Assembly: GCA_922989275.2 (NCBI GenBank)
Contig: OV277861.1
Location: 98,308,993-98,372,992 of the forward strand
Direction of reading: 5' to 3'
DNA length: 64,000 nucleotides
From: Gari tellinella
Lineage: Eukaryota; Mollusca; Bivalvia; Cardiida; Psammobiidae
Shown here: in pieces, positions 1-62,683 of the stretch
How positions within the stretch are numbered: position 1 is the first letter of the stretch
Layout of the letters: every line of letters starts with the position of its first letter
Notes under the pieces: generated by a model
What the model saw: the letters and a program-made list of their open reading frames with translations, nothing else
The model's database searches: none
Told to the model about the DNA's origin: nothing
Program-made: the position numbers and the translations under genes

Positions 1-127
1 CAGTAAGGAGCCTGATCAGACGCCGTGTTTACCCGGCGTCTGATCAGGCTCAAAACTGTTTGCACTGGAAATAGTATTTTTAGCGTAAAAGCGTTTACTG
101 GGAAAGAACAGCGTTTTATCCACTGTA
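1..127. mobile_element. M1 element, right part, cut by window edge
   Basis: The window opens inside an M1 copy: alpha hairpin (about 5-58), then the TTTAGCGTAAA...GGGAAAGAACAG...CCACTGTA right end with terminal TA. It diverges from the young copies at 39-56 kb. Confidence 0.8.
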
Positions 128-394
128 AGAGCTAAAAAGGAAGGCGGTTTGGTGGTTTTAATCCAAACAGGCTGCTTTGGAACAAATGGGATAAGCCGAA
201 ATCATCTTCCTGTAATCATTATCATGTCATCTCATCATACATCCCTCATCATTTATGGGCGTTTGTCTCGCAGATCCTGGCAAATGTCGTTGGCAGAATA
301 AAACAATTTTACCAACCGCACAATAGTTATGATCCACTAAAACATGTTTTTCTTTTATTTGCACACCGGCCACTCGTGGATTTGCAAACATTTC
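128..394. other. Non-coding, nothing recognised
   Basis: No open frame of note, no tandem structure and no match to the element families in this window. Confidence 0.5.
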
Positions 395-414
395 CACTCA
401 GGGCTCGATATCTC

Positions 415-506
415 ACAGGGCCCCGACACGATTGCCTTTTGAGAAAAAAAACGTCAGAAGTATATCGATTTTTTTCTCTAAAAATAGCAATCGTGTCGGG
501 CCCGTG
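415..506. mobile_element. Mini palindromic element, CAGGGCCCCGACACGATTGC ends
   Basis: Inverted ends of 20 bp (CAGGGCCCCGACACGATTGC at 415-434; GCAATCGTGTCGGGCCCGTG at 487-506) enclose about 50 bp of A/T-rich sequence. I could not see a clear target duplication. It seems to interrupt or abut the K element that follows. Confidence 0.55.
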
Positions 507-674
507 TGCGCAGTCAAGCGTTACCCGTCTAAAACCTTAAAACGTGGCTTAGCCACGTTTTAACTGTGAACTACGGGTATGTTTGACTTAACCTTACATG
601 AAATAATGTAATTAATGTATCGAAATATCGGTTAGTTCGAGTTAAGCGAGTCGAGATATCGAAGTTCGACTGTA
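507..674. mobile_element. K element with gamma palindrome
   Basis: It contains AAACGTGGCTTAGCCACGTT at about 539-558, flanked by the complementary-type ACGGGTATGTTTGACTTAACC segment. It ends in CGATATCGAAGTTCGACTGTA, the K family right end. The left end is unclear because of the element at 415-506. Confidence 0.6.
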
Positions 675-1005
675 GTTGCAACTTCTCTGTCTGACGAGTA
701 AATTGTAACAAACAGTATGCAGACGAGACAGCAGCAGTTTATATTGGTCTACACTTTTAGCAGTGTCAAATTCCTTCTCTTGTCGCATCTCATAATTCTG
801 TTCAGGTTAACTTTATGTTATCCCAATTAACGCGTTCGTGTCCAAAGTACTGCTGTTAATTGTTTACAGTTTGGAACTAGATCAGATGCAGCGTAATTTT
901 GCATCTGACCAGGTGCAAGCCTGTTGGTAATTTATAGTACAATAAATGTTCGATATTTTCAAATACATGCACCTGTCATTTTTAGCTCGCCTATTCGAAG
1001 AATGT

Positions 1006-1034
1006 GGGTGGGTGGGTGGGGGGGGGGGGGGGGG
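1006..1034 (+). repeat. G-quadruplex-prone G tract
   Basis: Four GGG blocks separated by single T run into 17 consecutive G (1018-1034). This is a canonical intramolecular G4 pattern on the plus strand. The 82-aa open frame across it (946-1194) is just poly-Gly from the tract. Confidence 0.85.
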
Positions 1035-1039
1035 CGTCG

Positions 1040-1570
1040 GCATCAGCGTCGGCGTTGGTTTTTCATGGTTAAAGTTTTGGGGTAAGTGTTGTAATGCACT
1101 TGTGCTTCATGACATATTTGCAGTAGGAAGCAGATATTTGGAATGGAGGTGCCCATGTGGGTTGAACATTGATGTTGTGTTGTTAAAATTTTAAAAAAGA
1201 AGTTAAAATTTAGTCAAAATTTTACCTTTTGTGGACTTAGGTTTTTCGGCTGATTTCTCATGGTTAAAGTTTTGGGGCAAGTGTTGTAATACACTATTAC
1301 TACATGAAATATTTGTATTAGGAAGCTGATACATGTATTTGGAATGAAGGTGCCCTCTGGGTTGAACATTGATGTTGCGTAGTTAAAATGTTTTTTAAAT
1401 TTAGTCAAAATTTCACCTGTTTTGGACTTAGAAATTTAGGACTGAAATTTCAAAGTTAGTTATGGAGTAAGTGTTGGAATGCACTTATACTACATGGCAT
1501 ATTTACATTAGTAAGCTGATATTAATTTGGAATGGAAGTTCCCTGTGGCTTGAATATCAATGTACTGATA
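1040..1570 (+). repeat. Tandem repeat, about 190-195 bp, three copies
   Basis: Markers recur: CATGGTTAAAGTTTTGGGG at 1064 and 1259, GTAAGTGTTGnAATGCAC three times, and GGTTGAACATTGATGTTG. Spacing is 195 then about 188 bp. The third copy is more diverged. The upstream GCGTCGGCATCAGCGTCGGCG sits next to the G tract. Confidence 0.8.
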
Positions 1571-1751
1571 TACTTTTCTATTGATAGTTACCTATTTAAG
1601 AAAGGTTTAATTAGGCGAGCTTTGCTGATCTCCGACAGCTCTTGTACATTTAACCCATTTATGCAGAGACAGTGTATACACTGACTCTGATTTATGCCTT
1701 GATGAACTCTCTATGTATCCTTGCTGAGATATATCATTGTACATGTAGATA

Positions 1752-3408: not shown

Positions 3409-3720
3409 ACAGTAAAGATGATGTACTTGCTGTGAAGAAACGGTTTTCCTCTCCCAAACAAACGCGTTTATGCTAAAACAAGGCTGCCATTTCTCCGGAT
3501 TTTTTCTAAGTCTTCGGATTTTTATCCTAGCCTTAAGGCGAATTCTGCTTTACTTTCAACCTGTTTTAAGCAGTCATGTGTCTTCAAAACAAGAAACAGT
3601 CTATGGGGTAAAGGTACGATTAGTAAAATTGCGTCTGAAAATTTAAAATCTTAGGATTTTTATGATCAACTTATGGCATCCCTGCTAAAACCGTTATGTC
3701 CATTTCGCAATTTGTCCGTT
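3409..3720. mobile_element. Decayed M1 relative split by an E element
   Basis: TTCCTCTCCCAAACAAACGCGTTTATGCTAAAA before 3479 is M1-like. CTAAAACCGTTATGTCC resumes after 3684. The E insertion duplicated CTAAAA. Confidence 0.55.
3479..3684. mobile_element. E element, partial hairpin beta
   Basis: CAAGGCTGCCATTTCTCCGG start and CTTATGGCATCCCTG end. Exact 6-bp duplication CTAAAA (3473-3478 and 3685-3690). Only one beta arm (TTCTGCTTTACTTTCAACC) remains inside. Confidence 0.85.
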
Positions 3721-3860: not shown

Positions 3861-4164
3861 CAGGGCTGCCATTTCTCCAGATTTTTCCGAAATCCTCGGA
3901 TTTTCTTAAACCTACGGATATTTTCCGAAATATTCGGATTTCTCCTCTTACTTTTAAAACTTTGATGTTTTTACTTTTAATTGGGGAACATTGATATGGG
4001 TGTTATCAAACAGCTTAGATCAAGATCAGTCGCCGCGCTAAGTGGCGTCTGATCTGGATCCAAACTGTTTACATAATTATGTTAGTGTTATAGAACCTGG
4101 TAGCAAAAGGTCAAAGAAAATATGGAAATTTTTGGATTTCAGTGAGCAACTTATGGTAGCCCTG
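3861..4164. mobile_element. E element carrying hairpin alpha
   Basis: CAGGGCTGCCATTTCTCC start and CTTATGGTAGCCCTG end, flanked by TATCCA/TATCCT (5 of 6 match). The interior holds alpha (about 4007-4072, CAAACAGCTTAGATCAAGATCAG...) instead of the beta hairpin of other E copies. Confidence 0.85.
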
Positions 4165-5393: not shown

Positions 5394-5620
5394 TTAACCC
5401 ATTTGTGCCCACGATCTAAAATATGGGATATGGGCAAACAGTGTAGACCCTAATCAGACGCCGCATTATGCGGTGTCTGACCAGATTCTACACTGTTTAA
5501 TGATAGGGTTTCAATATAAAACAAAATCAAAATGAAAATTTTGACCAGGCACCCCTAAGGAAAATATGGACAAATCCAATATATAAGCATGGAAGAATCC
5601 ACTGGGCACAAATGGGTTAA
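5394..5620. mobile_element. B element with alpha hairpin, TTAA-flanked
   Basis: TTAA at 5394-5397 and 5617-5620. Inverted ends are CCCATTTGTGCCCACG and TGGGCACAAATGGG. Alpha lies at about 5433-5498 with apex GCCGCATTATGCGG. TTAA target and CCC start fit piggyBac-type MITEs. Confidence 0.9.
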
Positions 5621-5850
5621 ATGACATGCCACCCAAAGATGTACTGAAACACACGAAATTTGCTTCTCTAGCTGATATAGTGTAGGAAATATGCTTCTGA
5701 CAACTTTTCATAAATGAGGCCAAAGTATTAGGTCACGGTGACCTGAAAATGTTACTAGACATTCCGTCTTCCCAAAATGTTTTCACACTATAGTATACAC
5801 TGCTGGTGTTGTACTGGAAATATTCACCGGGTAAGCCTTTTCTATATCTT

Positions 5851-6621: not shown

Positions 6622-6817
6622 TAGACCAGACTGAAAGTGAAAGAGAATACACCCTAAGCGCATTCTGCTTTACTTTCAGTCTGCTTTAAGCTACCATCTG
6701 ATGATATAGAATTTTAGCTCTTAATGTGCACGTTCATCTCGTGTTTATAGTGAAACTATTTTATTCAGTGGATGAATAAATTAAGTGTAAAGGCGTAGTT
6801 ATGGTGTTATGGCTTAA
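6622..6817. mobile_element. C element, left end lost
   Basis: Right beta arm (GCGCATTCTGCTTTACTTTC), CATCTGATGATATAG, ACTATTTTATTCAGTGGATG and right end to TTAA (6814-6817). The next A element starts with this same TTAA. Confidence 0.75.
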
Positions 6818-7064
6818 CTCAGTATCCCCTGAAACTTCAAATGGGCAATTCCAGTTTGCAATAAAGGCGGAGCCATTTAAGACTATTTAGGATTTTTGTT
6901 TTATATAAGATGAAACATGACAAACAGTGAAGTCCCTGATCAGAGGGCTCCTGCAGGAGCCCTCTGATCAGGGACTTCCCTGTTTGCATAGAACAAGTGT
7001 ACTTCTCACAAGTACACCTTTGGTAAAGGACGCATATATGCGTCACTAGGGCTCAATGAGTTAA
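6814..7064. mobile_element. A element, full length
   Basis: TTAA at 6814-6817 and 7061-7064. Alpha variant hairpin at about 6921-6987 has GATCAGAGGGCTCCTGCAGG at the apex. The ends CTCAGTATCCCCTGAAAC / GGGCTCAATGAG identify A (here in reverse). Confidence 0.9.
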
Positions 7065-7393
7065 AACAAATTTAGGATTGCACAAGTTTTACTGTGAATG
7101 TGTGTGACGTCTTGTAACAATGCTCATTGCCTATACACGAATCACCTGCTCAACTCACCGAACAGCCGTTTAATAAAACACATCATTTAACCTTCATATT
7201 GTCACACTATTTTATGTTTTCGATAAATTATTGTCGTTTGCAGATTTTTCCCACAGCGTTTCATTAATTTTAAGAAATATCACTTCATTAGTGAATCAGT
7301 ATAGGACTGTGTCCATACGCCTAGTTGCTCGGCATGAAATCAAGTCGCAATATGTAAGCAAATATCAGTGCGTAAATCTTGGCAGAATAAGGG

Positions 7394-7616
7394 CTAACCC
7401 CTTCACTGTCACGACGTCATCTGATTAAAACAATTGCCGTCTGCTTTTATTCTCAAATTTAGATTTAAAGTAAATTGACTAAAGTAATAATCGTATGAGC
7501 GTCAAAAAGTTTGAATCCTGATCAGACGCCGCCTTACGCGGCGTCAGATACGGAATCAAACTGTTTGCAAAAAATCATTGTAGAATCTACATGGGGTAAG
7601 GTAGTAAAGGGTTTAA
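7394..7616. mobile_element. D element with alpha hairpin
   Basis: CTAACCCCTTCACTGTCACG left end with decayed TTAA, TTGCCGTCTGCTTTTATTC, alpha at 7501-7568 (GCCGCCTTACGCGGCG apex), and right end to TTAA at 7613-7616. Confidence 0.85.
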
Positions 7617-14820: not shown

Positions 14821-15649
14821 GATAGATTCGGATCATAGAGGTTTACCTTGTTTAATCAACTCAGAATAGTTAATGTATGTGCCCATCGGATAAATGGTAA
14901 AAAGATACATCGCAAACAACCATATCAAATATCGCTTGAGAAGGGTACTTTTAAGGCGATCGAGTTTCGCCTTCAACTGTATTTGTAGTATTGGAAACAT
15001 TTTATTTTGATTTGCTCTAAACTAAAAGAGCTCCGAAAGTTATGCATTAAGAAAAAATTATTATGACCGACCAAGTATGTAAAAATTATTTGCTATGTAA
15101 GAAGACCATCATGCATTCCATACAATGACTGGTGTTTTGCTACTGCTCGTCAGAGGCACAGGGACATGTCACTTCATCCCACATAAATTCTACATTACCA
15201 ATTCTATGATAACAGAAATGCATTACATGTATTACAGCAAATGCACAACACAGTAAAACGTCTGGTTAAAAATGCCATTTTTAGGCAATACACTTTGGTA
15301 CTATAGTTCTAGGCACTACTTTCAAATGAGAGCATTTCCGGTCTATTTGGTGTTCCCTAACCTCTAACAGGTCAGACTCGGTAGGTACCTAGATTTTTGG
15401 CGCTAACATTGAATGTAGTCAAGACGTTATACAATACTATCTGGTAGGGTCTTCGAAAACGATATAGGGGCCCATTAACTGTTGAATATTTCCCATTCTC
15501 TCTGAACACAATCACCTTCCCGTGTTGGCTCGATATCAGACCATGATTAGGTAGGCCGAACGGCCACAAATTGTTACAAATATTCCACAAACAATTCATT
15601 GTAACACTGTAAGAAAGCATTATCATCTTGGTTATCTGAAACTATCGAA
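14821..15649. other. Non-coding, no gene recognised
   Basis: The 84-aa minus frame at 15372-15626 has no recognisable domain and an ordinary length for chance. Confidence 0.4.
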
Positions 15650-15863
15650 TTAACCCCTTCACTGCCACGACGTCATTAATTTAAAAAAAAATTGTCGTCT
15701 GCTTTTATTTCTTAAATTTAAATCTTAGGATTTTTTACTTAAAATATTGAAATGAGTGTCAAGCAGTGTGGATCCGGATCTGACGCCGCGTTACGCGGCG
15801 TCTGATCAGGATCCAAACTGTTTGCAAATAAGTATTGTTCTCGGGTAGGCAGTGGAGGGGTTA
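15650..15863. mobile_element. D element with alpha hairpin
   Basis: TTAACCCCTTCACTGCCACG start (TTAA 15650-15653), TTGTCGTCTGCTTTTATTTC, alpha 15759-15825 with apex GCCGCGTTACGCGGCG, and a right end decayed to TTAT. It is the best D reference copy here. Confidence 0.9.
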
Positions 15864-16153
15864 TTGCCGATCTTTACCTTTGTATTGCTGAGGAGCAACC
15901 TAACACTCTCGCGGTTTAAAATACCGTTTGTCTAAAAACGTCATTTTCTTTTATATCTCAAACTCTTTTTTGACGCATTTTAAGCAGAGAAACATAGGAC
16001 TGAGCGTTAAGCAGTTTGAATCCTTGTCAAACATCACACATACTGTTTCGTGTGTTTTAGGAAATTTAGGCAATCACTTAGACGCAAACTTCGGTTCTGC
16101 GGAATAATGTAGCGAGCTCAAGAAAAATAAGGAATGCCTCTCATTTTTTTACA

Positions 16154-16405
16154 ATTTCAACCCTAGCGACGAGGATACTGATCATTAACAAACAGTGTAC
16201 CTGTTGAAAGAGTATACAATTTGGCCAAGGCAAACAGGATATACCCTCTGCAGAGGGCTCCTGCAGGAGCCCTCTGATCAGGGTCTGCATTGTTTGTCAT
16301 TTTTGCAATATTTTGTTAAAATCAAGAAAAAAATAGTCATAAATGGGTTGGATTTAATTGTAATCTGTAATTGTCCATTTAAAGTTTCAGGGTTGAATGA
16401 GTTAA
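16154..16405. mobile_element. A element, diverged, sharing TTAA with next element
   Basis: CCCTAGCGACGAGGATACT left region, alpha variant at about 16230-16297, and GTTTCAGGGTTGAATGAG before TTAA (16402-16405). A D-like CCCTTTCACTGTCG starts directly at this TTAA. Confidence 0.75.
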
Positions 16406-16599
16406 CCCTTTCACTGTCGTTTGCGACTTGACTGGTATTGGTATTATGTATCTGTTCTCAATTCAAATTATTTGACGCTCGGATTTAGGTTTGTTATATT
16501 CAAAAATATAAAATTCTTGAATTGACAAATATTGCACTTGACAATAAATACGAAAGACTCAAGCAGGAAACGTAACACAAACAATACACCCACCTCTCA

Positions 16600-17360: not shown

Positions 17361-17559
17361 GATGACACTACCGTCACCATTTTTCTTAATTTTATTGTAT
17401 TCAGATATAAAAGCGTTTTCCCGTTATTTAACCTTTTTATCAAAATTTGACACGCGTTTATAAAAGTTTAGATCCTGACAAGAAACAGAATAAGTAAGAT
17501 GGAGTGACCTGTCCTTGCTCAGTAAATCCATTTCGTTGGGTAATTTTTTAATAATTCCA

Positions 17560-17695
17560 ATTGCCACTTAAGTGTAGTCCATTTTGAGTATCTAGGGTTA
17601 ATTTTAATAATGCAGAATGACAAACAGGAGCCCTCTGATCAGGGTTTACAATGTTTGCATAGGACAGGTTAAGTTTTCAGCCCTTTGAGTTAAAT
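17560..17695. mobile_element. A element, internally deleted
   Basis: One alpha-variant arm (ACAGGAGCCCTCTGATCAGG, 17627-17646) lies between GACAAACAG and ATGTTTGCATAGGACAG. It ends AGCCCTTTGAG at TTAA near 17692. The other arm is lost. Confidence 0.65.
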
Positions 17696-19935: not shown

Positions 19936-21290
19936 AAAGATCAGTCAGATTCTGACCTTAGAATTGAAGCAAAATATATAAATTTTGACAAATTTGTGAG
20001 AGTCGTTACCGATTCTGTTGACATAAGTGATATAAATTTATTCAGCGTTGGCCAGTGACAATAGTACGGTTTAAAGTACTTGAATCGTAGCATTCTGTAT
20101 TTCGGACAAACAAGTAAGAAGTGATATTCGTCTTCAATGACGTTTAAATTACAGTGTTTACATTTTCTATCTTGTATGGCAATATTATTGAGTCTGCCAG
20201 TTTCAATACTTAGTTGATGTGACGAAAGTCTAAATTTTGTAAATGCGATTCTATATTTATTGACACTTATACAGTTAAGATATGTTTCTATGTTAAAACT
20301 ATGTTTGTACATGCAATAAGACCCAAGTCGTCTAGAGTTATTAACACTTGTATACCAACTTTGCTTATAAATATCGCGAATACGCTGTTTTATCATATGA
20401 TAAATAGGCGGATTAAACATAAAGTCATTTTGACATCGCCAAATGTCACTCATTCCGATTTCCTAAAGTATCGTTTTGATTTGAAAAGCCCAATTTGTAT
20501 TGTGATAATATCATTATCTGCGTCAGTTCTCAACATATTGTATAAAGGTTTTACAAATGGGTTATTTGACGTTAACATTTTTAACCAGTATTTTACCATA
20601 GTAAGTTTTCTTTGTATTAACATAGGATACCTTCCTGATTCTCCGTATAAACCAACAAGGTTTGTAGACTTTTTTACACATAATAGTTTCCTTAAAAACT
20701 TGCAATGTATCAATTCTATATCCTTACTTTCATGGTAACCCCATACAGCTGACCTATAATTGAGTATTGAACCTACAAGAGTATCAAATAATTTACATTT
20801 TTCTTTGACAGATAATTCAAGTTGATTAAAAACAATAAACAAGTTGTGTAATGCACGATTGCTATGTTTTGCTAGTCTATTTTGGGTTCTTGCCCAGTTT
20901 CCATTTTTAAACAAATGTATCCCAAGATACTTAAAAGAATCTACACTCTCTAAAATTGTATTGTTAATTGTAAAATTATGTCTACTGTGTCGGCCTTTTT
21001 CAAAGATCACTATTTTTGTCTTTGAAGTATTAATTGTAAGGCCCCATGTCAAGCAATAACGTTCAAGATCATTTAAGAGCGACTGTAGAGCTTGTGGCGT
21101 TTCAGCAAAAAGTACTGCGTTATCACAGAAGAGCAAGATATACATCTTGATTTCATTGGTGCTAAATAGACCATCAATATTTGTCTTAGTGTTTTGCAAC
21201 AAATCATTCACAAAAACAAAACCATAAGACTGGAGCTCGGATCTCCCTGCTTGACACCCTTATTTGATAATAGAAACTCATACTTTTAGC
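19936..21290 (-). pseudogene. Dead LINE: reverse transcriptase C-terminal half
   Basis: On the minus strand, 21289 to 21215 encodes KYEFLLSNKGVKQGDP (RT motif with GVKQGD). A frameshift follows, then a 253-codon frame (from 21211) containing ILLFCDNAVLFAE, the position of the catalytic F/YADD box, then LTINTSKTKIVIF and YLGIHLF. A second frameshift at 20450-20453 (overlapping ATGA) leads to a 170-codon frame with a C-terminal zinc-knuckle-like CKHCN...EDEYHFLLVCPKY. This order matches ORF2 of CR1/Jockey-type LINEs. The second catalytic Asp is Asn and the preceding Ala is Cys, so catalysis is expected to be lost. With two frameshifts and a 5' cut at an M1 fragment, it is a fossil. The host's own RT function is not implied. 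Confidence 0.9.
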
Positions 21291-21534: not shown

Positions 21535-21655
21535 GATACCCTATATATCGTACTCGTTTAAATAGAACATATCGAACATACAATATTTCAAAATAGCTCA
21601 GTTATGTTGTAATTTTGAAATACGGATGTGGTCGACTTCAGCGAGCAGAGGGTTA
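21535..21655. mobile_element. K-type element, decayed
   Basis: TCGAACATACAATATTTCAA ... AATTTTGAAATACGGATGTG is the gamma frame with a degenerate centre. Confidence 0.45.
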
Positions 21656-21661
21656 TCTAAT

Positions 21662-21892: not shown

Positions 21893-22188
21893 ACTGGAAA
21901 AAAACCTCACAGGAAATCCGACATTGGCGAGTTTATCTTGTTCCACTGTATTAGTATGCAGTCAAGCTTGTGTTGATGGGGTACTCTTTGGACCACTGAG
22001 TTGTCTTCATTATTGCTGGTTGCCTGTTGAAAGGTTAAATAATGCATACAACTCAAACATTTCTTTGGTGCGAGTCTGATCGGCTGTTTCCGCCAAAACA
22101 CGCCGAGAGCTGAATACAACGCCCTGTAGCGCACCGCCAAAATTGTTTGCTGCATCATACCATCTTGCATTAAACAGTGACTTATGTT

Positions 22189-40599: not shown

Positions 40600-41590
40600 C
40601 AAATACGGAGAATCTTTACCTTGAGCTTGCTGAAAATTACTGTTTCAGCCTTGTCCGCTCTCAAACACTTCCTTTTGGATCTTCACCAAACTTGCTACAA
40701 ATGTTTAGTAGTATAGAATCTAGGTCAGGTTCAATAACTAGCAAAATCGCATGAGGCATGTCTGAGTAATTGTCCTTGAATAATTAAAAAATGACTGTTT
40801 CAGCATTTCCTGCTCTCTAACACAAATACTTTTTATTGGATCTTCACCAAACTTGCTGACAATGTGTATTGGTATTAAATCTAGGTCAAGAAAAAAATCT
40901 GATAAACAAACTGTATGTGTTAGACAGCAAAAAATGCTGAAACATTAATTTTTAATACCTAAAGGTCTAAAACTCAGACATGCCTTTTGCGATTTTAGTA
41001 GTATTAAAACCAAACCTTGAATTTATATAAATAAACATTTTCAGCAAGTTTAGTGAATATCCGATAAAAAAAGTATGTTTTAGAGTGCAAAAGTGACTGA
41101 AACAGTCATTTTTTATTAATAAACAGGCAATAACTCAGATATACCTTATGCGATTTTAGTAGTAATCAAACTAAACCTTGATTTTATATCAATAAACATT
41201 TTCAGCAAGTTTGGTGAAGATCCAATAAAACGTATTTGTGTTAGAGAGCAAAACTTGCTGAAAACAGTCATTTTTAATACATAAAGGGCAAAAACTCAGA
41301 TATGCCACATGCGATTTTAGTAATAATTAAACTAGCCTAAATTTTATATGAATAAATATTTTCAGCAGGTTTGGTGAATATCCGATAAAAGCTGTTTGTT
41401 TTAGAGTGCAAAAATGACTGAAAAAGTCATTTTTTATTAATTAACAGACAATAACTCAAAAATACCTTATGCGATTTTAGTAGTAATGAAACTGAACCTT
41501 GATTTTATATCAATGAACATTTTCAGCAAGTTTGTGGACGATCGGATAAAAATTAGTTGAGTTAGAGAGCGGACAAAAAAGTATGATAGT
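40600..41590. repeat. 161-bp tandem repeat with an inverted arm
   Basis: GCGATTTTAG recurs at 40989, 41150, 41311 and 41471 (period 160-161). Two further units lie to the left in the opposite direction (GATCTTCACCAAACTTGC near 40679 and 40839, period 160). The unit carries AACATTTTCAGCAAGTTTGG and AAAAACTCAGATATGCC. The right border has GACTGATGGATGGACGGGCG. Confidence 0.9.
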
Positions 41591-42706: not shown

Positions 42707-42799
42707 AAAGAGGGTATTTTGCTTTATGCTTTACTGTCAGTCTGCTTTAAGCAACGTTGTCTTCAATATTGAACACCAGCTATGGGGGAAAAGGTTTAA
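42707..42799. mobile_element. C element, one half
   Basis: Beta arm ATGCTTTACTGTCAGTCTGC, then AGCTATGGGGGAAAAGGTTTAA. Its TTAA (42796-42799) starts the next A element. Confidence 0.7.
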
Positions 42800-43051
42800 C
42801 TCATTGTGCCCTAGTGTCGCACATATGCGTCCTTTACCAAAAGTGTACCTGTAAAGAAAAGAGTACACTTGTCTAATTCAAACAGTGAAGTCCCTGAATA
42901 GAGGGCTCCTGCAGTGGCCCTCTAACCAGGGACTTCACTGTTTGTCATTTTGCAATATATTATAGACAACAACCCTAAATAGTCTTAAATGGACCAGCCT
43001 TTATTGTAAACTGGAATTGTCCATTGGTAGTTTCAGGGGATAATGAGTTAA
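42796..43051. mobile_element. A element, full length
   Basis: TTAACTCATTGTGCCCTAGT start, alpha variant at 42879-42947 (AGAGGGCTCCTGCAGTGGCC), GGGGATAATGAGTTAA end (TTAA 43048-43051). Confidence 0.9.
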
Positions 43052-43177
43052 AGTCGAAATCAACTATATGCTAGTCATTTTGAGAGGATGACAGAACTTA
43101 ACATGTAGGAAGATCATTGAAGAAGACTCCTTTCATGGCGTTTGTATCACTTTAACATTGCAATAACTAGACACATC

Positions 43178-43406
43178 TTAACCCATTTGCGCCTAGTGGA
43201 TTCGTCAATGTTTTATATTGGATTAGTCCATTTTTTATCAAAGGGATGCCTGGTTAAAATTTTCATTTTCATTGTGTTTATATATTGAAATTCCTATCAG
43301 CAAACAGTGTAGACTCTGATCAGACGCCGCATGATGCGGCGTCTGATCAGAGTCTTCACTGTATACCTATGTCCCATATATGTGATATCGGGCACAAATG
43401 GGGTAA
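43178..43406 (-). mobile_element. B element, reverse, perfect alpha
   Basis: TTAACCCATTTGCGCCTAGT start, alpha 43301-43365 (GCCGCATGATGCGGC apex), GGGCACAAATGGGGTAA end. Confidence 0.9.
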
Positions 43407-44624: not shown

Positions 44625-44862
44625 TTAACCATTTACTCCATAAATACACGTTAATTTATTCCTCAACTAAAGAAAGTGGTTCCAATTTATACAGTCATGA
44701 ATATTGATCATAATTAAAAATACTATATTCTAGCTGATGGTAGTTAAAATAATACTGAAAGTAAAGCAAATGCGCATTCAGATTCATTCTGCTTTACTTG
44801 CAGTATGCTTTAAGTCATCATTAGCCTTCAACACTTGAAACAGGACTATGGAGTAACAGGTA
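44625..44862 (-). mobile_element. C element cut by M1 near its right end
   Basis: TTAACCATTTACTCCATAAA start, beta hairpin decayed (AAATGCGCATTCAGATTCAT), GGACTATGGAGTAACAGG then M1 at TA. Confidence 0.75.
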
Positions 44863-45110
44863 CAGTGGAGAATCTGTTATTCTTTCCCGTTTAAACACAA
44901 ACGTACGCAAACGCAAAACACTAAAACGTAGAAAAGAACAATTTTTGGACAATTCTGATATTTCATGTTTATCTTGGTGGCAAACAGTTTGGAGCCTGAT
45001 CAGACGCCGGGTTACCCGGCGTCTGATCTGGCTCCAAACTGTTTGCACTGCAAATAATAGTTTTAGCGTAAACGCGTTTATTGGGAAAGAATAACAGATT
45101 CTCCACTGTA
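44861..45110 (+). mobile_element. M1 element, full length 250 bp
   Basis: TACAGTGGAGAATCTGTTAT to CAGATTCTCCACTGTA. Alpha 44980-45046. One of six nearly identical 250-bp copies. Confidence 0.95.
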
Positions 45111-45878: not shown

Positions 45879-46082
45879 TTAACCAGCGACGTCATAGCCT
45901 ATTTCTAGTTTTGAAATGAAGTGACCACTTGAAGCAGATAGAAAATAAAGCAAAATGCACACAAGGCACATTTTGCTTACTTTCAGCCAGCTTTTAGCTA
46001 CTAGATGCTAGAAATAGAAACTATTTATCATGATGATATTAATGGCTGTGTAAATAGAAACTATTTTATTCAGTGAAGAAAA
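45879..46082. mobile_element. C element, right end lost to J
   Basis: TTAACCAGCGACGTCATAGC start, decayed beta hairpin (45930-45990). It stops at TTTTATTCAGTGAAG where the J element begins. Confidence 0.7.
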
Positions 46083-46425
46083 ACAGTGCTCCCTCTCCAC
46101 AACGACACCCATTGGGAGACAACAATTATGTGCGTTGTTCGGAGGGAGTCGTTATAGGGAGGGAAATTGGCATACATTTGCAAACAGCTTGAACCCAGAT
46201 CGGACGCCGCGTTACGCGGCGTCTGATCTGGATTCAAATTGTGTTTTCCTGTCAAAATGTTCAACATGTAACTTTGAGAAAAAACAGCAGACCACAGATT
46301 TAAGCAGACGATATTGCAGCAGTAAAAGCGCTGGATATAATGCTTCTGTTTAGGGAAATGCGACAATGGTCGCTGTTAGGAGGTAGTCGTTGTTAGGAGG
46401 GCAGTTGTATGGAGGGAGCGCTGTA
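46083..46425. mobile_element. J element with alpha hairpin
   Basis: ACAGTGCTCCCTCTCCACAA left and GGAGGGAGCGCTGTA right, with repeated GGAGGGAGTCGTTATAGGG-like blocks inside both ends. Alpha 46188-46247 (GCCGCGTTACGCGGCG). Confidence 0.8.
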
Positions 46426-46474
46426 GATTCACGTTCATCCTGAATGAAGATGCGTCCTAAATGAGCTTTATACA

Positions 46475-46703
46475 TTAACTCATGTGTGCCCACGATCCCA
46501 TATATGGGACAGAGGCAAACAAGAGATACTCTGATCAGACGCCGCATTATGCGGCGTGTGATCAGAGACTACACTGTTTGCTGATGGCCACTTCAATATA
46601 AAACGAAACAAAAATTAAATTTTAGACCAGGCCACCCTTAGATAAAGAATGGTTTAATCCAATATATAAGAATGGATGAATCCACTGGGCACAAATGGGT
46701 TAA
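46475..46703 (+). mobile_element. B element
   Basis: TTAACTCATGTGTGCCCACG start, alpha 46516-46582, GGGCACAAATGGGTTAA end. TTAA 46475-46478 and 46700-46703. Confidence 0.9.
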
Positions 46704-46878
46704 TTTCGTCCTGAAGTAAGCTGCAATTTGTCTCATGAAAGGACAATTAGGCTTGGTTTGCTATTCAGGGAAGATGGATAATTTCATGTCGAGCCTCAGC
46801 AACTATAGCTCGCTTAACACCAAGTACTGTCATCCCGTCATCCGTGTGCACTTTTTTTCAATTTTAAAGTGTGGATAA

Positions 46879-47130
46879 ATTGACTCGTTCGTCCCTGAAA
46901 CTTAAAATGAAACATTCCAGTATCCAATAAAGTCATGTTCATTCAAATTTTAGTATTTCCAGTTTGTTAGGTTTTTCGTTGTTTTTTTAAATGTGCAGAC
47001 TCTGATCAGATGGGTCCTATAGCAGTCCTTTAATCAAGGAATACATTGTTGGCATAGGAAAAATGCATTCTTCAAATAAACACTGTTTGTTAAAGACAAG
47101 CAAACTCGTCGCTAGGGTTCGATGTGTTAA
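46879..47130 (-). mobile_element. A element, reverse, decayed
   Basis: CTCGTTCGTCCCTGAAACTT left, alpha variant decayed (GATCAGATGGGTCC), TCGTCGCTAGGGTTCGATGTG to TTAA 47127-47130. Confidence 0.7.
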
Positions 47131-47912: not shown

Positions 47913-48127
47913 TAACAGTATACAATGTTGTTATGTGTTCTGGTTCTTTGGGATATATCATTGGTATCAACGCATTTATAATTGAAAAGTAAGTAAGTAA
48001 CGTTGCACTGTTCAGTATTGATGAAAATTTAACCGAATCTGCAATTTGCCGTATTTGCTTGTTGTCGATGCTTTCGAATGATCTCTACTCATTCAGAATT
48101 TATAAAAAGTTTCAAATAGGCTCGTTT

Positions 48128-48275
48128 TTAACCCAATTAAGTATTGTGTCTACTTAAGTGGACATTGGCAAACATTGTAGACACGGATGAAACGCCGTTT
48201 AACGCATCAGGGTCTGCACTGTTTGCTATTTCATACGAAATATTCGTTGCTATGGTTCAGTCAATTTAAGTGTGA
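48128..48275. mobile_element. P element with alpha hairpin
   Basis: TTAACCCAATTAAGTATTGT, GTGTCTACTTAAGTGGACATTGG, alpha 48160-48221 (GAAACGCCGTTTAACGCATC). The right end is not clear. Same family as 60486-60698. Confidence 0.7.
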
Positions 48276-49219: not shown

Positions 49220-49469
49220 TACAGTGGATAATCTGTTATTCTTTCCCGTTTAAACGCAAACGTACGCAAACGCAAAGCGCTAAAACGTAGAAAAGAACAA
49301 CTTTTGGACAGTTCTGATATTTAATGTTTATCTTGGTGGCAAACAGTTTTGAGCCTGATCAGACGCCGGGTTACCCGGCGTCTGATGTGGCTCCAAACTG
49401 TTTGCACTGCAAATAATAGTTTTAGCGTAAACGCGTTTATTGGGAAAGAATAACAGATTCTCCTCTGTA
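49220..49469 (+). mobile_element. M1 element, full length 250 bp
   Basis: TACAGTGGATAATCTGTTAT to CAGATTCTCCTCTGTA, alpha 49338-49406. It is next to a remnant I end (49470-49519, TTAGTGGTCATAATACAGAG). Confidence 0.93.
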
Positions 49470-49669: not shown

Positions 49670-49900
49670 TACAGTGGAGAATAAACGCGTTTACGCTAAA
49701 ACTATTATTTGCAGTGCAAACAGTTTGGAGCCAGATCAGACGCCGGGTAACCCGGCGTCTGATCAGGCTCCAAACTGTTTGCCACCAAGATAAACATGAA
49801 ATATCAGAATTGTCCAAAAGTTGTTCTTTTCTACGTTATAGTGCTTTGCGTTTGCGTACTTTGCGTTTAAACGGGAAAGAATAACAAATTCTCCACTGTA
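49670..49900 (-). mobile_element. M1 element, left end shortened
   Basis: TACAGTGGAGA joins directly to ATAAACGCGTTTACGC (about 19 bp lost). The rest is as in the full copies, with alpha 49715-49784. Confidence 0.93.
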
Positions 49901-50286: not shown

Positions 50287-50772
50287 TACAGTGGATCAGG
50301 CGTAATTCCTTCCCGTTTAAACGCAAACGAAACCTAAACAAATTCAAATTAAATATAGAAATTCATTCAACTTTCAACAGTTTTGACTATACGTGTGAAT
50401 ACAGCACCCTTTTCTACAACGACTCCCAATGGGAGGCAAAAACTGTTTGCGTTGTTCGGAGGGAGCCGTTATAGGGAGGGACATTAGTTTCCATTTGTAA
50501 ACAGCTTGAATCCAGATAAGACGCGACGTCACGCGGCGTCTTATCTGAATTCAAGCAGTTTGTCAATCGTCATTAAGGTTTTGCGGCGAGGGTCATTGTA
50601 AGGAGGGAGTCGTTGTTGAGAGGGCCATTGTAGGGAGGGAAAATTGTAGTTGCAAAAAGTCTAGCGCATGATCAGACGCATTCATATGATCTGGCTCCAA
50701 ACTGTTTGCAATGGAAATTATTGTTTCAGAGTAAACGCGTTTATTGGGAAAGCATAACATCTTCTCCACTAT
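50287..50772. mobile_element. M1 element, diverged, split by J
   Basis: TACAGTGGATCAGGCGTAAT and the ACGCAAACG series before 50401. After 50648, alpha remnant (GCATGATCAGACGCATTCAT) and AAAGCATAACATCTTCTCCACTA. Confidence 0.75.
50401..50648. mobile_element. J element nested in M1
   Basis: ACAGCACCCTTTTCTACAAC left, TTGTAGGGAGGGAAAATTGTA right. Alpha 50508-50567 (GCGACGTCACGCGGCGTC). Confidence 0.75.
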
Positions 50773-50789: not shown

Positions 50790-51039
50790 TACAGTGGAGA
50801 ATCTGTTATTCTTTCCCGTTTAAGCGCAAACGTACGCAAACGCAAAACACTAAAACGTAGGAAAGTACAACTTTTTGACAACTCTGATAATTCATGTTTA
50901 TCTTGGTGGCAAACAGTTTGGAGCATGATCAGACGCCGGGTTACCCGGCGTCTGATCTGGCTCCAAACTGTTTGCACTGCAAATAATAGTTTTAGCGTAA
51001 ACGCGTTTATTGGGAAAGAATAACAGATTCTCCACTGTA
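50790..51039 (+). mobile_element. M1 element, full length 250 bp
   Basis: TACAGTGGAGAATCTGTTAT to CAGATTCTCCACTGTA, alpha 50907-50976 with a single private change (GCATGATC). Confidence 0.95.
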
Positions 51040-51304: not shown

Positions 51305-51806
51305 TTAACCCATATTCCATAGATACTCATTTTTAAGCATTTACTTCATTCATCCATTGAGGAAATAAGTTCCAATTGATACAATCATGAATATCTATGA
51401 TGAGAAATATTTTCTGTATTCTTTAAGATTGAAGCTTAACTCGGGCTGAAAGTAAAGCAGAATGCGCCTTAAAGGCGAATTCTGCTTTACTTTCAACCTG
51501 CTTTAAGTAGTTATATCAATCTTCAATACTAGAAAAATACAGTGGATAATCTGTTATTCTTTCCCGTTTAAACGCAAACGTACGCAAACGCAAAGCACTA
51601 AAACGTAGAAAAGTACAACTTTTGGACAATTCTGATAATTCATGTTTATCTTGGTGGCAAACAGTTTGGAGCCTGATCAGACGCCGGGTTACCCGGCGTC
51701 TGATCTGGCTCCAAACTGTTTGCACTGCAAATAATAGTTTTAGCGTAAACGCGTTTATTGGGAACGAATAACAGAATCTCCACTGTACCATGGAGTAAAT
51801 GGTTAA
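51305..51806 (-). mobile_element. C element split by M1
   Basis: TTAACCCATATTCCATAGAT start, beta hairpin 51440-51507, CTTCAATACTAGAAAAA then M1. It resumes CCATGGAGTAAATGGTTAA (51788-51806). Confidence 0.9.
51538..51787 (+). mobile_element. M1 element nested in C, 250 bp
   Basis: TA at both borders. Without it the C element reads continuously, so the TA target duplication is directly visible. Alpha 51656-51725. Confidence 0.95.
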
Positions 51807-51992: not shown

Positions 51993-52221
51993 TTAACCCA
52001 TTTGTGCCCATGATCCCATATATGGGACAAAGGCAAACAGTGTAGACTCTGATCAGACGCCGCAATATGCGGCGTCAGGTCAGAGTCTACACTGTTTGCT
52101 GATAGGAATTTCAATATAAAACAAAAGGAAAATGAAAATTTTGACCAGGCATCCCTTTGATATAAAATGGATTAATCCAATATATAAGCATGGACAAATC
52201 CACTGGGTATAATTGGGTTAA
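51993..52221 (+). mobile_element. B element
   Basis: TTAACCCATTTGTGCCCATG start, alpha 52034-52100 (GCCGCAATATGCGGC), end TATAATTGGGTTAA. Confidence 0.9.
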
Positions 52222-52796: not shown

Positions 52797-53208
52797 ACCC
52801 CTAATAAGATCTAACTTAAATCGGTACATGTACTCTCCGTACAGCAATCGGCCGTTGTTGCGAATCGCGCTTTAAAAATGGTCGATCGCTCTCCCAGGGC
52901 TGCCATTTTTCCGGATTTTTCCTAAATCTTCGGATATTTTTTCTGGTACATGGTAGCTTAAAGCAGGCTGAAAGTAAAGCCGAATGCGCCTTAAGGCGCA
53001 TTCGGCTTTTCTTCCATCCTGCGTTAAGTAGTCACATGTCAACAAAGCTTGAAACAGGCTATGTGGTAAAGGTACGTAAAATCGCACTTAAAAATGCAAA
53101 TTTGGAAATCTTAGGATTTTCCATGTCAACTTATGGCAGCCCTGCTCTCCGTAGTGTACCGATATTGACCAACATTAGCCCGACCTCATTAGGGGTCCTC
53201 GTCCTCAA
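52797..53208. mobile_element. N element split by E
   Basis: AAGGTTGAGGACCCCTAATA left, GATCGCTCTCC before 52895, and CTCTCCGTAGTGTACCGATA after 53144 to CATTAGGGGTCCTCGTCCT. Same layout as 22189-22368. Confidence 0.85.
52895..53144. mobile_element. E element with beta hairpin, nested in N
   Basis: CAGGGCTGCCATTTTTCCGG start, ACTTATGGCAGCCCTG end, exact 6-bp duplication CTCTCC (52889-52894; 53145-53150). Complete beta hairpin near 52961-53029, apex GCGCCTTAAGGCGC. The unoccupied N copy at 22.2 kb has a single CTCTCC. Confidence 0.95.
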
Positions 53209-54096: not shown

Positions 54097-54280
54097 TACA
54101 GTGGAGAATCTGTTATTCTTTCCCGTTTAAACGCAAACGTACGCAAACGCACGCAAACGCAAAGCACTAAAACGTAGAAAAGTACAACTTTTGGACAATT
54201 CTGATAATTCATGTTTACTGTAAATAATAGGTTTAGCGTAAACGCGTTTATTGGGAAAGAATAACACATTCTCTACTGTA
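54097..54280 (+). mobile_element. M1 element lacking the alpha hairpin
   Basis: Both ends are intact (TACAGTGGAGAATCTGTTAT; ACATTCTCTACTGTA). At 54214-54220 ATTCATGTTTA joins directly to CTGTAAATAATAGG, so the whole alpha cassette and short flanks are absent. Extra ACGCAAACGC units lie in the left half. Confidence 0.9.
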
Positions 54281-54340: not shown

Positions 54341-54590
54341 TACAGTGGAGAATGTGTTATTCTTTCCCAATAAACGCATTTACGCTAAAACTATTATTTG
54401 CAGTGCAAACAGTTTGGAGCCAGATCAGACGCCGGGTAACCCGGCGTCTGATCAGGCTCCAAACTGTTTGCCACCAAGATAAACAAGAATTATCAGATTT
54501 GTCCAAAAGTTGTTCTTTTCTACGTTTTAGTGCTTTGCGTTTGCGTACGTTTGCGTTTAAACGGGAAAGAATAACAGATTCTCCACTGTA
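54341..54590 (-). mobile_element. M1 element, full length 250 bp, inside a J remnant
   Basis: TACAGTGGAGAATGTGTTAT to CAGATTCTCCACTGTA, alpha 54404-54473. Flanks TTGTAAGGAGGGGG and CCTTGTAGGGAGGG are J-end fragments. Confidence 0.93.
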
Positions 54591-56098: not shown

Positions 56099-56348
56099 TA
56101 CAGTGGAGAATCTGTTATTCTTTCCCGTTTAAACGCAAACGTACGCAAACGCAAAGCACTAAAACGTAGAAAAGAACAACTTTTGGACAATTCTGATAAT
56201 TCTTGTTTATCTTGGTGGCAAACAGTTTGGAGCCTGATCAGACGCCGGGTTACCCGGCGTCTGATCTGGCTCCAAACTGTTTGCACTGCAAATAATAGTT
56301 TTAGCGTAAACGCGTTTATTGGGAAAGAATAACAGATTCTCCACTGTA
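56099..56348 (+). mobile_element. M1 element, full length 250 bp
   Basis: TACAGTGGAGAATCTGTTAT to CAGATTCTCCACTGTA, alpha 56219-56285. The left flank ATTTATTCC is C-like, and C sequence with beta arms resumes at 56360-56510, so it probably sits in a C copy. Confidence 0.95.
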
Positions 56349-56511: not shown

Positions 56512-56517
56512 TAGGGG

Positions 56518-56773
56518 CGGGGCTGCCATAAGTTGACATGAAAAATCCTAAGATTTCCAAATTTGCATTTTTCAAGTACGATTTTACGAATCGTACCTTT
56601 ACCCCATATCCTGTTTCTAGTTTTGTTGACATGCGACTACTTAAAGCAGATTGTAAGTAAAGCAGAATGCGCCTTAAGGCGCAATCTGCTTTACTTTCAG
56701 CCTGCTTTAAGCTACCATGTACTGGGGGAAAAATCCGAAGATTTAGGAAAATTCCGGAGAAATGGCAGCCCTG
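56518..56773 (-). mobile_element. E element with beta hairpin, reverse
   Basis: CGGGGCTGCCATAAGTTGAC start, CGGAGAAATGGCAGCCCTG end. Flanks TAGGGG / TATGGG match 5 of 6. Complete beta hairpin near 56641-56713. Confidence 0.88.
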
Positions 56774-57747: not shown

Positions 57748-57939
57748 TTAAACCTCTTCACTGCCATAACGTCATACACTTTTAAGAATTGTGGTCTGCT
57801 TTTGTTTCTCAAATTTAAATTTTAGGTAATTTTACCTAAAAAGCTATTGAAATGAATTGCAAGCAGTTTGGATTCTGACCAGGGTCCAAACTGTTTGCAA
57901 CAACCGTTGTTCTCGTGGGTAAAGCAAAAAAGGTGTTAA
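57748..57939. mobile_element. D element, alpha shortened
   Basis: TTAAACCTCTTCACTGCCAT start, TTGTGGTCTGCTTTTGTTTC, alpha 57857-57900 with most of the apex lost. TTAA 57936-57939. Confidence 0.8.
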
Positions 57940-59806: not shown

Positions 59807-60059
59807 TGCAGTGAAGAAAACGTTATTATTTCCCGTTTAAACACAAAAGAAACGCAAACGCAAATCGCTAAAATGTAGGAAATTACCATTTTGTAACATT
59901 TATAATTATTGATTTTTATATCTGAGTGGCAAACAGCTTGGAGCCTGATCAGACGCCGGGTCACCCGGCGTCTGATCTGGCTCCAAACTGTTTGCACTGG
60001 AAATAATAGTTTAAGCGTAAACGCGTTTTTTGGGAAAGAATAACGTTTTCTCCACTATA
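59807..60059. mobile_element. M1 element, diverged, intact alpha
   Basis: TGCAGTGAAGAAAACGTTAT left, TAACGTTTTCTCCACTATA right. Alpha 59931-60000 (GCCGGGTCACCCGGC). Confidence 0.88.
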
Positions 60060-60485
60060 ACTGATGTATCGCTGAAGTCACGCCATTCGCCTATCACTTT
60101 TGTATAATCTTGATTCGCAATTTGAGTCATTTAAGTTTTATCCACCCGAACTTTACTCATACCGTACCGCTACCCACTGAACACAGTTTGTTTGATTTGC
60201 GCCTTTCTAAAACAAGCAAAATAATATATTATATTGTGTATGGATCTTGGATCAATCGTGTCACCGGCCTTGAGTCTACATTTAGCAATACTCTTGGCGT
60301 TGACTTAAGTAGGCGCATTGCAGACTGCAGCAAGATAAGCACAGTGAAGATGTTCCGGGTAATGTTAAAGGTCAAGAATATATCCCGTTACTATTAAAGT
60401 ATTTATTTCCATCTTACCACAGGTGTCTAGGTCTTATATTACTCATAATGAAAGTCACTCAACCTTTAGAATGCTACACAGCTGT
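60060..60485. other. Open frame without recognisable product
   Basis: A 95-codon plus frame (60110-60397) crosses non-repetitive DNA of fairly balanced composition (SWINRVTGLESTFSNTLGVD). No domain, no splice sites I would defend. Left uncalled. Confidence 0.25.
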
Positions 60486-60698
60486 TTAAACCCACTAACG
60501 CTTAGTGTCTACTTAAGGTGACAATGGCAAACAGTGCAGACCGCTATGCGGCATCTCACCAGGGTCTCCACTGTTTGCTATAGCATACGAAATATGTTGT
60601 TGTATGGACCAATACTGTAATGTCTTAAGATCACCCTTGTACAACTGCAATGAAATCTTCCAGCAAGTTTATTGCAGTATTCAGGCATTATGGGTTAA
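60486..60698. mobile_element. P element with alpha hairpin, TTAA-flanked
   Basis: TTAAACCCACTAACGCTTAG start and GGCATTATGGGTTAA end (TTAA 60486-60489; 60695-60698). Alpha 60530-60581 (GACCGCTATGCGGCATC). Confidence 0.8.
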
Positions 60699-60858
60699 GA
60701 TAAAAGTTAACAGGTGCTGTAGATACTCAATGTAGATTTAGTTGTCCTTAGTATTGGACAACACCATACAGGAGAAAAGAGTTTGGATGCAGATGAGATG
60801 TCGGGTAACTGTTCACCTCAGTTCGGTTCAAATTGGTTGGAACGGTATAAGAGCATAC

Positions 60859-61050
60859 ACGAAAACCCCCTATATTACGACCACGTAAAAGAAATATAAT
60901 GGATTTTATGAAAAACAGGTAACAGCTTAAATCAAGGTTAAAGTAAAACAGAAAGCTCCTATAGGAGCTTTCTGTTTAACTTTCGCCTTGCTTTAAGCAG
61001 TCACCTGTGACAAAAAACCTTATAATTAACACTGTTTAGTGGTCGTAATT
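60859..61050. mobile_element. I element with beta-variant hairpin
   Basis: ACGAAAACCCCCTATATTACG left, TTTAGTGGTCGTAATTTTGA right. Hairpin about 60919-60995 has arms AAAGTAAAACAGAAAGCTCC and complement, apex TATAGG. Confidence 0.8.
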
Positions 61051-61184
61051 TTGACAAGTAGCGTGCACAAGTTAAAACGGTAGATATATGTATAATTGTG
61101 ACACACGATCTGTCAGTTTATCTTTGTTATATTCTAAATTTAGTTCTGAATAAATTTACCAAATAAAGTCAAAATTCAACATTC

Positions 61185-61325
61185 GCCGAACTCGCATTAG
61201 GTCGAACATATCAGTATTTCAAAGTTAAAAATAAGGGTAAAGCATGGATAGTGTTCGCCGGACACAAACAATTTTCAATAAAGTCGAAGTTTAGAAAAGC
61301 GGGTTAGTTCGACAAAAACGATTTT
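61185..61325. mobile_element. K-type element, decayed
   Basis: CCGAACTCGCATTAGGTCGA, CAGTATTTCAAAGTTAAAAA, GGGTTAGTTCGACAAAAACG. The palindrome centre is lost. Confidence 0.5.
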
Positions 61326-61433
61326 ACGGAATCCTGTTAATACCTACAACACTTTCGTCTGGCAAAACTTTTTCAACAATAAAAAAATACGAACATTCAG
61401 ATTCGATTGTCTCATTCTTTTCTCAGTCCTGCA

Positions 61434-61745
61434 TTAACCCTCTCGACGCCAACGCAGTTCGATAAATGTATGTTGACATGAATTCCCACAGCAAACTTCA
61501 AAATTTGAAAGCGAAAATCGACATTGCCTTTCTGTTTTTATTCTTTTAGATAACCCAAGTAGTCAGTGTAAAAAGGACGAAAATGCAACTTCAATTTTCG
61601 CATTCCTTTATCAGTGCGGAATCCTCCCGACGCCAACGCAGTTCTGTATTAATTCACTCAGTAAACCTAAAACGTTGAAGCGAAAATCGACCTTGTATAT
61701 TTGTTATCATGCTGACTACTCGGGTCATCTAAAAGAAGTATACTA
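61434..61745. repeat. Direct plus inverted duplication
   Basis: CGACGCCAACGCAGTTC at 61444 and 61629 (185 bp apart). GCGAAAATCGAC follows each. A 26-bp inverted pair starts TTCTTTTAGATAACCCAAGT at 61541 with its complement at 61712-61737 (two mismatches). Confidence 0.8.
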
Positions 61746-62364
61746 AGTCAATGACATCTGCAAAAAGTATTGCCTGTAACAGTTCTCAGAGTTGGTTTGC
61801 TTGAATACTCGTTCATTTACATATCACTTTAGCGTCAAAAAGTTTGAATCCAGATGAGATGATAAGTCACTCTCAGCCATTTCCAAACTGTTTTCAAACG
61901 TATCACAAATCTTCCCGTAGCGCACAGAATGCTAAGGGAAGTGGTAAGGGATATTTTGATATAATTTATTCATGTTAGAAAGGTTTATTCGATTCCGTCC
62001 CAAGCCTAGAACCATAACATTACTTACATTCTTAGCCATGCGTTAATAACAGGTTTAATCCCGAATATAACGATGAAACGTTTCTATTGAAAGCATAACA
62101 AATGTACCGCGTTAGAAGAAATAACTGTAAAACGAACCTCAAATATTTCAAAACTTTCTTTGATATACAACTATACATTTTCTAGCAATAAGGAAAATGA
62201 ACAAGGGAATCCTGGTGTCATATTACTGCTATATTGCTTTAGTAATGATACATAAAATATGAGTCCAACTTTGCAATTTGGCGTCGCCAGTCTGAAATGC
62301 GTATGGAGCTGGTTTTTGTGGTTTTGAGTTTTTTTGTTATGTTTTTTTTGTTTTGTATTTTTTA

Positions 62365-62683
62365 ATAGTGAAGACGCTATTCTTTCCCGTTTACACATAA
62401 ACCAAACGTAAACGCATTGCAATAAGATATTGCAAATGTCGTGTTTTAGCAATTTCTTATTATATTTTCAATTAAGTGGCATGCAGTTTGAAGCCTGTCT
62501 CCAACCTGTTAGCAATGATTTTAATTGAGCCATGCCAAGAGAAAACCTATTTGCACTATAAACAGTGTAGATCGAGAAAAGGCGGCTGGTCTTGATCTAC
62601 ACAGTTGGATACCCACATGCATCTAAAGCATTTTACCCAAAACGCATTAATTGGGAAGACTTAAGGTCTTCTCCACTATATTT
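62365..62683. mobile_element. M1-related element, two hairpin remnants
   Basis: AGTGAAGACGCTATTCTTTC left, GGGAAGACTTAAGGTCTTCTCCACTATA right. Inside are an alpha remnant (GCAGTTTGAAGCCTGTCTCC) and a second short hairpin at 62574-62613 (AGTGTAGATCGAG ... TTGATCTACAC). Confidence 0.6.

Follow-up and report, generated by a model that had tools for sequence, protein, structure and literature searches.

A 67-base, near-perfect palindromic DNA hairpin, here called alpha, occupies the centre of short transposons throughout a 64-kb stretch of the Gari tellinella genome (C6:98308993-98372992, about 0.6 Mb from the contig end in a genome of 1.6 Gb; hereafter the window). Its carriers fall into families with ends of three insertion types, and the sequence of the hairpin predicts the family of the ends that surround it. 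We favour, with a probability of roughly 55%, an origin of alpha in miniature inverted-repeat transposable elements (MITEs) that insert at TTAA, followed by nested insertion into, or capture by, ancestors of the families J, M and E, by co-amplification and co-inheritance with the new outer ends, and by retention of the hairpin as an aid to propagation.

The hairpin, its carriers and its linkage to their ends

The window contains 32 exact matches to GATCAGACGCC (shuffle mean 0.02), 43 to GCAAACAGT (shuffle mean 1.02) and ten to GATCAGAGGGCTCC with at most one mismatch. An iterated profile search, in which matches above an E-value of 0.01 were dropped, placed 55-56 alpha loci there, which makes the roughly 45 palindrome copies of a preliminary description of this DNA a fair undercount. 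The profile also found 140 matches in a 200-kb genome sample (twenty 10-kb stretches, two of them free of alpha) and none in one dinucleotide-shuffled copy of the window and this sample. Scaled up to the whole genome, the sample count would give about 1.1 million copies (standard error about 0.2 million). The perfect inner form of the hairpin (D, M, A type) has 169,896 genomic places, compared with 0 for the reversed control; it occurs 11 times in the window (6.8 expected) and 19 times in the random stretches (21.3 expected), so that the sample looks representative. The hairpin has no Rfam match at gathering scores, and a known RNA was ruled out as its identity, the sole such match in the window being one tRNA. 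The half-hairpin pattern found no locus in viral contigs, and two matches in bacterial contigs were taken as chance.

At least nine element families with different ends had been described as carriers. The same core does sit amid different insertion chemistry, but since A, B, D, P and F share TTAACYC-type ends (by eye), the nine reduce to three insertion types: TTAA (A, B, D, P, F), TA (M, J) and that of E, which is probably 8-bp and hAT-like. Judged by their target duplications, M and J are putatively of the Tc1/mariner type and A, B, D, P and F putatively of the piggyBac/Kolobok type. M elements have the ends CAGTGGAGAA..TTCTCCACTG and J elements CAGTGCTCCCTC-type ends, both with TA borders, while E elements end in AGGGCTGCC and show their 8-bp duplication most clearly in copies that lack alpha. 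In the enlarged sample, TA stands at both borders in 75 of 82 M elements with readable ends, two window copies being counted twice through the overlapping locus L001, and in 5 of 6 J elements. A loose TTAA motif was found at both ends of 13/26 B elements (at least one end in 22/26) and of 4/7 A elements (at least one end in 7/7); the TTAA borders of D, P and F were read by eye only. Among nine end-paired E copies, the duplication is an exact 8 bp in one (3480), matches at 7 of 8 positions in two (52896 and one in L045) and at 4-6 of 8 in the remaining six, and the alpha-bearing copy at 3862 keeps 5/8. The 6-bp duplication formerly assigned to this element (then placed at 3861) is thus better read, from the nine copies, as 8 bp. 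The carriers are MITEs by structure, being short and numerous, with terminal inverted repeats (TIRs) and target duplications, and their ends lie about 180-370 bp apart. None of the six open reading frames (ORFs) of at least 150 amino acids in the window falls in a listed element; some M copies are overlapped by shorter ones.

For the relation between core and ends, arms were clustered without the hairpin and then assigned by cluster profiles in the enlarged sample, giving a final classification set of 332 loci in 354,968 bases from which the overlapping locus L001 had been removed. Hairpins were assigned to M (92), B (26), D (57, of which 28 by the right arm only), J (11) and A (7). After exclusion of hairpins with more than 25 alignment gaps (12/193), the hairpin sequence alone pointed to the correct end family in 178 of 181 copies (leave-one-out profiles), whereas permuted labels gave 57-72 of 181. 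Both arms match a family at 165 of 171 two-arm loci and are discordant at six, in a count that excludes loci with one or zero assigned arms and treats each of the five left arms that accompany the D right arm, J included, as a family of its own. Co-inheritance of core and ends is thus supported by tests.

Free exchange between the present families was rejected on this agreement, and the freely exchangeable or mobile module of the preliminary description is not supported. We also consider it doubtful that alpha is a module that acquires new ends, alone or together with one arm, through breakage or template switching at the palindrome, given the core-to-end agreement and how few two-arm copies fall outside the families as defined here. 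Such joining would find support in the D right arm, which occurs with five left-arm clusters (D5 at 14 loci, J at 11, D11 at 8, D10 at 5 and c12 at 2), and in the deep grouping of cores (M with D), which conflicts with end type. By eye, the short TTAA left partners of the D right arm resemble diverged forms of one arm; J does not.

When M ends were paired with the hairpin ignored, 100 of 107 elements carried alpha, as did 70 of the 77 that had not been fetched by an M query. Six of the seven alpha-less pairs retain a partial hairpin (by eye); the seventh, at 54097-54280, lost alpha cleanly, and its alpha-less junction occurs once in the sample. B-end pairs carry alpha in 28 of 29 cases, the exception having an E element inserted in the hairpin region, and the eight distinct A-end pairs comprise seven with alpha and one with half a hairpin. 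By these end-pair counts, alpha is a fixed part of M, A and B and not a guest that comes and goes.

At a deeper level, core and ends disagree. The core nearest to that of M is the D core (6/67 differences), which is also the nearest to J (7 differences), yet the target is TA for M and J and TTAA for D; the outer stem of A is nearest to that of B (5/50 differences). The interpretation in the preliminary description is partly supported, in that different insertion chemistry surrounds one core and core and ends are discordant at the deep level. Such a combination of tight linkage and deep disagreement is what a small number of ancient transfers, with descent thereafter, would yield.

Alpha could also be imagined as a tiny palindromic transposon inserted many times over. 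Palindromes do occur inside MITEs, as a second one, beta, does in eight of nine end-paired E copies. At 83 loci alpha has no assigned arm, and these copies, a few of which resemble further TTAA families by eye, are older by score (median 26 vs 55). Direct repeats of 4-8 bases abutting them are not in significant excess (14-45 of 100 shuffles reach the observed number), and the check proposed earlier, for alpha standing alone within its own target duplication, thereby gave no support among the 83. A self-mobile alpha was rejected on these grounds, and we hold repeated insertion of such a transposon to be highly improbable.

Proposed nested origin and probable constraint on the palindrome

Under the favoured account, alpha would be the old central part of a single MITE superfamily that inserts at TTAA and later split into A, B, D, P and perhaps F. 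A TTAA MITE of D or P type would have landed in, or been captured by, the ancestors of J, and probably also those of M and of a few E elements. Its TTAA ends would then have been lost, wholly or partly, the outer ends would have amplified the composite, and core and ends would have been inherited together ever since. This sequence of nesting, end loss and co-amplification is the best account of the carriers outside the TTAA type, and a likely one for M and E: it explains J, agrees with part of the evidence on E and is plausible for M. Direct nesting was observed by eye in one case (L038:5054-5515), where a B element has a beta-bearing E element in its hairpin region.

The D arm in J is supported by tests. 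J carries the D right arm to the right of alpha together with, by eye, a decayed D terminus; none of 3000 shuffles reached the observed homology, and one of two random-genomic controls gave 0.0003. A J left arm occurs at 15 loci, paired with the D right arm at 11 and with an unassigned right arm at four. The insert in E matches the D2 right arm (p 0.001-0.0015), and its right flank recurs at L035:5153 (0/2000 shuffles), where an E right end follows and no left end was recognised. The right arm of old M copies resembles the start of the D right arm (p 0.002-0.005, anchored comparison against shuffles and random genomic stretches) and J (p 0.006-0.009). A 'plainly D-like' M right arm was rejected after the unanchored test (p 0.41-0.51 for D2, 0.24-0.27 for J). 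Since the old-M results sit among twelve comparisons, a D origin of the alpha in M is likely, not certain. Arms of M, D, J, A and B were compared through automatic consensuses, and those of E, P and F through consensuses typed by eye alone.

In J and M the left junction falls, as read by eye, no more than about 10 bases from the edge of the hairpin; a break or template switch at a palindrome would also place it there. The sequence shared by J and old M copies nevertheless extends rightward beyond the hairpin, as capture of a larger piece predicts.

Several results weigh against nested insertion from a single TTAA superfamily. The E insert does not match D5 (p 0.7), J (0.08-0.10) or P (0.2-0.3), and its terminus resembles that of P in one copy (p 0.013) and not in the other (0.18). 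The consensus of all M copies is without detectable homology to D (p 0.07-0.32) or J (0.21-0.33), and neither a left arm nor a terminus of D type can be recognised in M. The M-end models were built from alpha-bearing copies, by which an alpha-less ancestor could be missed. Similarity of A and of B to D is weak (p 0.01-0.06); A-J, B-J and A-B arm similarities are not significant with automatic consensuses, although A-J (p 0.007-0.01) and B-J were both low with by-eye ones, and F shows no arm homology in its by-eye-typed form. A single origin of all TTAA families is unproven for these reasons. Among the 83 armless copies, a TTAAC[CT]C-type end is in place in 17, compared with 15.3% of random positions and with 62/118 in A, B and D. 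The nesting in E and M and the common origin of the TTAA families are weakly to moderately supported.

The form of the hairpin itself is well kept. Five single copies fold into one long stem of -27 to -40 kcal/mol (DNA parameters; z -8.6 to -15). When the five family consensuses are compared, the families differ at 10 of the 30 pairs that the outermost one encloses, with both sides changed and pairing retained; three pairs in B and a single A-A position in M are exceptions, the B stem having one base more than those of the other families. Six of the ten changed pairs involve transversions, and G-T is absent from pairs 2-31 of the M, D, J and A consensuses and present in the outermost pair of J and B. 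This transversion-rich pattern, free of G-T at the family level, points to a DNA palindrome rather than an RNA fold. The covariation score is 0.239, compared with 0.107 in shuffles (0/500) and at most 0.05 when slid, in an alignment of nine hand-chosen sequences (four consensuses and five copies) whose single copies hold some G-U cells. Compensation between families is thus supported by tests. Compensated changes also exceed expectation in the mixed D group (51 vs 11.6) and in B (14 vs 3.0), which we read as subfamily structure and, in B, also as alignment register.

The strongest rival to the favoured account, although we still judge it unlikely, is passive inheritance of a functionless palindrome with occasional arm-to-arm copying (quasipalindrome correction) in the replicating lineage. 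The co-variation of both arms between families, with its transversions and lack of G-T, favours arm copying over selection on an RNA. Such copying accounts for the pairing, but not for the blocks GCAAACAG and GATCAGA, which are identical in all five family consensuses and which it does not require. Copies of M hold 138 one-sided changes and three compensated ones (1.6 expected), so no correction after insertion is seen.

Slower evolution of the hairpin than of its flanks is likewise supported by tests. Variants shared by at least two copies are rarer per column in the hairpin, with hairpin-to-flank ratios of 0.40 in M (n = 44, p 0.0004) and 0.53 in B (n = 25, p 0.00003); singletons give 0.71 (p 0.07) and 0.81 (p 0.19). 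Seven A copies give 0.27 for shared variants and 0.71 for singletons, neither significant, and the 30 youngest-like M copies 0.58 (p 0.20) and 0.55 (p 0.03). These counts use copies not fetched by the hairpin query, namely 44 and 30 of 63 M copies, those of low flank similarity having been excluded. Two points count against a strict reading: all loci were found by the hairpin profile, which favours intact hairpins, and singletons are also rarer in the hairpin (0.55-0.81), so that no clean restriction of constraint to source lineages emerges. Constraint on those lineages is still the better reading, although the contrast is not clean. In the amplifying lineages the palindrome would be kept by paired changes of its arms, and we infer that this is most likely because the DNA hairpin promotes propagation. 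It may do so by helping excision, donor-site repair, replication or escape from silencing.

Elements and other features of the window

The elements recognised in the window are as follows.

44861-45110, minus strand: M element with TIR CAGTGGAGAATCTGTTATTCTTTCCC and TA borders; alpha at 44980-45046
37777-37947, 39031-39280, 49220-49469, 50790-51039, 51538-51787, 54341-54590, 56099-56348 and 59807-60059: further M copies with alpha
49673-49900: M copy with alpha and a shortened left end
54097-54280, minus strand: M element without alpha; gap of about 76 bp across the hairpin, by eye
62361-62680, minus strand: old M-type element with two degenerate hairpins, by eye
21655-21895, plus strand: A element with TTAACCCATTTGTGCCC-type ends; alpha at 21704-21770; right limit by eye
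5395-5622, 43174-43405, 46476-46708 and 51994-52221: further A copies
37545-37748: A copy with half a hairpin
33832-34080, plus strand: B element with TTAACTCATTGAGCCCTAG-type ends; alpha at 33907-33974; right limit by eye
2431-2652, 6809-7061, 16230-16414, 17552-17657, 22681-22928, 42799-43052 and 46873-47127: further B copies
15636-15900, minus strand: D element with TTAACCCCTTCACTGCC-type ends; alpha at 15759-15825; limits approximate
7392-7568, 35255-35407 and 57751-57898: further D copies
40320-40531, plus strand: P element with TTAACCC ends and a D-related right arm; alpha at 40428-40494; limits by eye
60477-60706, plus strand: F-type TTAA element; reduced alpha at 60527-60577
48126-48225 and 2074-2194: relatives of F
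46032-46426, minus strand: J element with CAGTGCTCCCTC-type ends, TA and a D-type right arm; alpha at 46180-46242
50369-50651: second J copy
3862-4163, plus strand: E element with alpha, AGGGCTGCC ends and a decayed 8-bp duplication; alpha at 4007-4070; a second copy of its insert is at L035:5153
52896-53143, plus strand: E element without alpha, with the other palindrome, beta
56519-56772 (minus strand), 3480-3683 and 33414-33667: further alpha-less, beta-bearing E elements

Two M copies near the young form, 54097-54280 and L047:8111-8296, have lost alpha entirely or by half. The beta palindrome (AAAGCAGGCTGAAAGTAAAGC..GCTTTACTTTCAGCCTGCTTT), recognised by a short motif in the end-paired E copies, also occurs outside E and was seen by eye near 51880, 56400, 44700 and 33700; it could be an independent small palindromic element. 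Similar TTAA elements with alpha may also be present in other clams and in Dreissena.

The window also holds fragments of non-long-terminal-repeat retrotransposons at 20450-21256 (Pfam RVT_1) and 24071-24799 (zf-RVT). For the former, the sole organism-named match among 120 of 250 was to Ruditapes philippinarum, at 63% identity; the retrotransposon protein found no locus in viral contigs. A 7-kb array with periods of 39, 79 and 236 bp and strong GC skew spans 25132-32176. Near an old D element, a tRNA-like Rfam match of 49 bits lies at 35479-35544, where ARAGORN, run with the bacterial code, finds no tRNA; it may be a tRNA gene or the head of a short interspersed nuclear element (SINE). A tandem repeat at 40916-41570 has a period of 161 bp, near the repeat length suggested by the name of the old bivalve satellite BIV160. 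The available text of one article on bivalve MITEs names BIV160 (PMC5139131).

Comparison with known systems

Titles and abstract openings of the papers listed yielded no description of the alpha hairpin in a search that left most subscription journals outside, and among the articles with hairpin wording none, by title, concerns mobile elements. The available text of an article on Mercenaria contains no words beginning with mite, hairpin or inverted repeat (PMC8905726), and that of an article on bivalves has no whole word hairpin and none beginning with palindromic (PMC10294476). The closest bivalve counterparts by subject are the modular pearl-family MITEs CvA and DTC84, the latter with a palindrome near a repeat junction, as given in the accessible part of their description (PMC5139131). 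They resemble the alpha carriers in being bivalve MITEs with modular interiors and, in DTC84, a conserved palindrome; according to that description, their modules are tandem satellite-like repeats and contain no single central hairpin. In rice, according to the available part of one report, internal sequences regulate the mobility of mPing and mPong (PMC9921582), a precedent for internal MITE sequence altering transposition frequency. Those are Ping/Pong-type elements, for which the same part describes no hairpin common to several superfamilies.

The question of why certain MITEs become so numerous is still open. Alpha marks successful families of about three insertion types in one genome, with low variation and with pairing kept by double changes. 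Annotation that clusters elements by internal sequence could here merge unrelated superfamilies.

Nesting followed by co-amplification is familiar from nested MITEs and composite non-autonomous elements. Alpha differs from the general case in that recipients of several superfamilies hold the same donor core, and in that this core evolves more slowly than the sequence around it.

Alpha carriers do not qualify as SINEs: M, J, A and B have inverted-repeat ends with TA or TTAA duplications, and the hairpin lacks an Rfam match at gathering scores. Alpha does have a trait of the highly conserved domains of SINEs, as it varies less than its flanks and is common to families with different ends. A tentative extension, to which we give little credence at present, would make it a transposase-independent selfish amplification module, improving the success of any cut-and-paste element that bears it, repeatedly acquired by elements with unrelated transposases and with its palindrome under selection, as a DNA-transposon counterpart of SINE domains. 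The closest parallel we found is the Tc1/mariner MITE MER6, which carries the V highly conserved domain of SINEs, as presented in the available text of PMC6887750. Both cases have a conserved internal domain in elements with different machinery, and that text explains the V domain in MER6 by fusion of two elements followed by amplification through the outer one. Unlike the V domain as described there, alpha is a 67-base near-perfect palindrome, its proposed donor is a TTAA DNA element and not a SINE, and it is found within about three insertion types in one genome.

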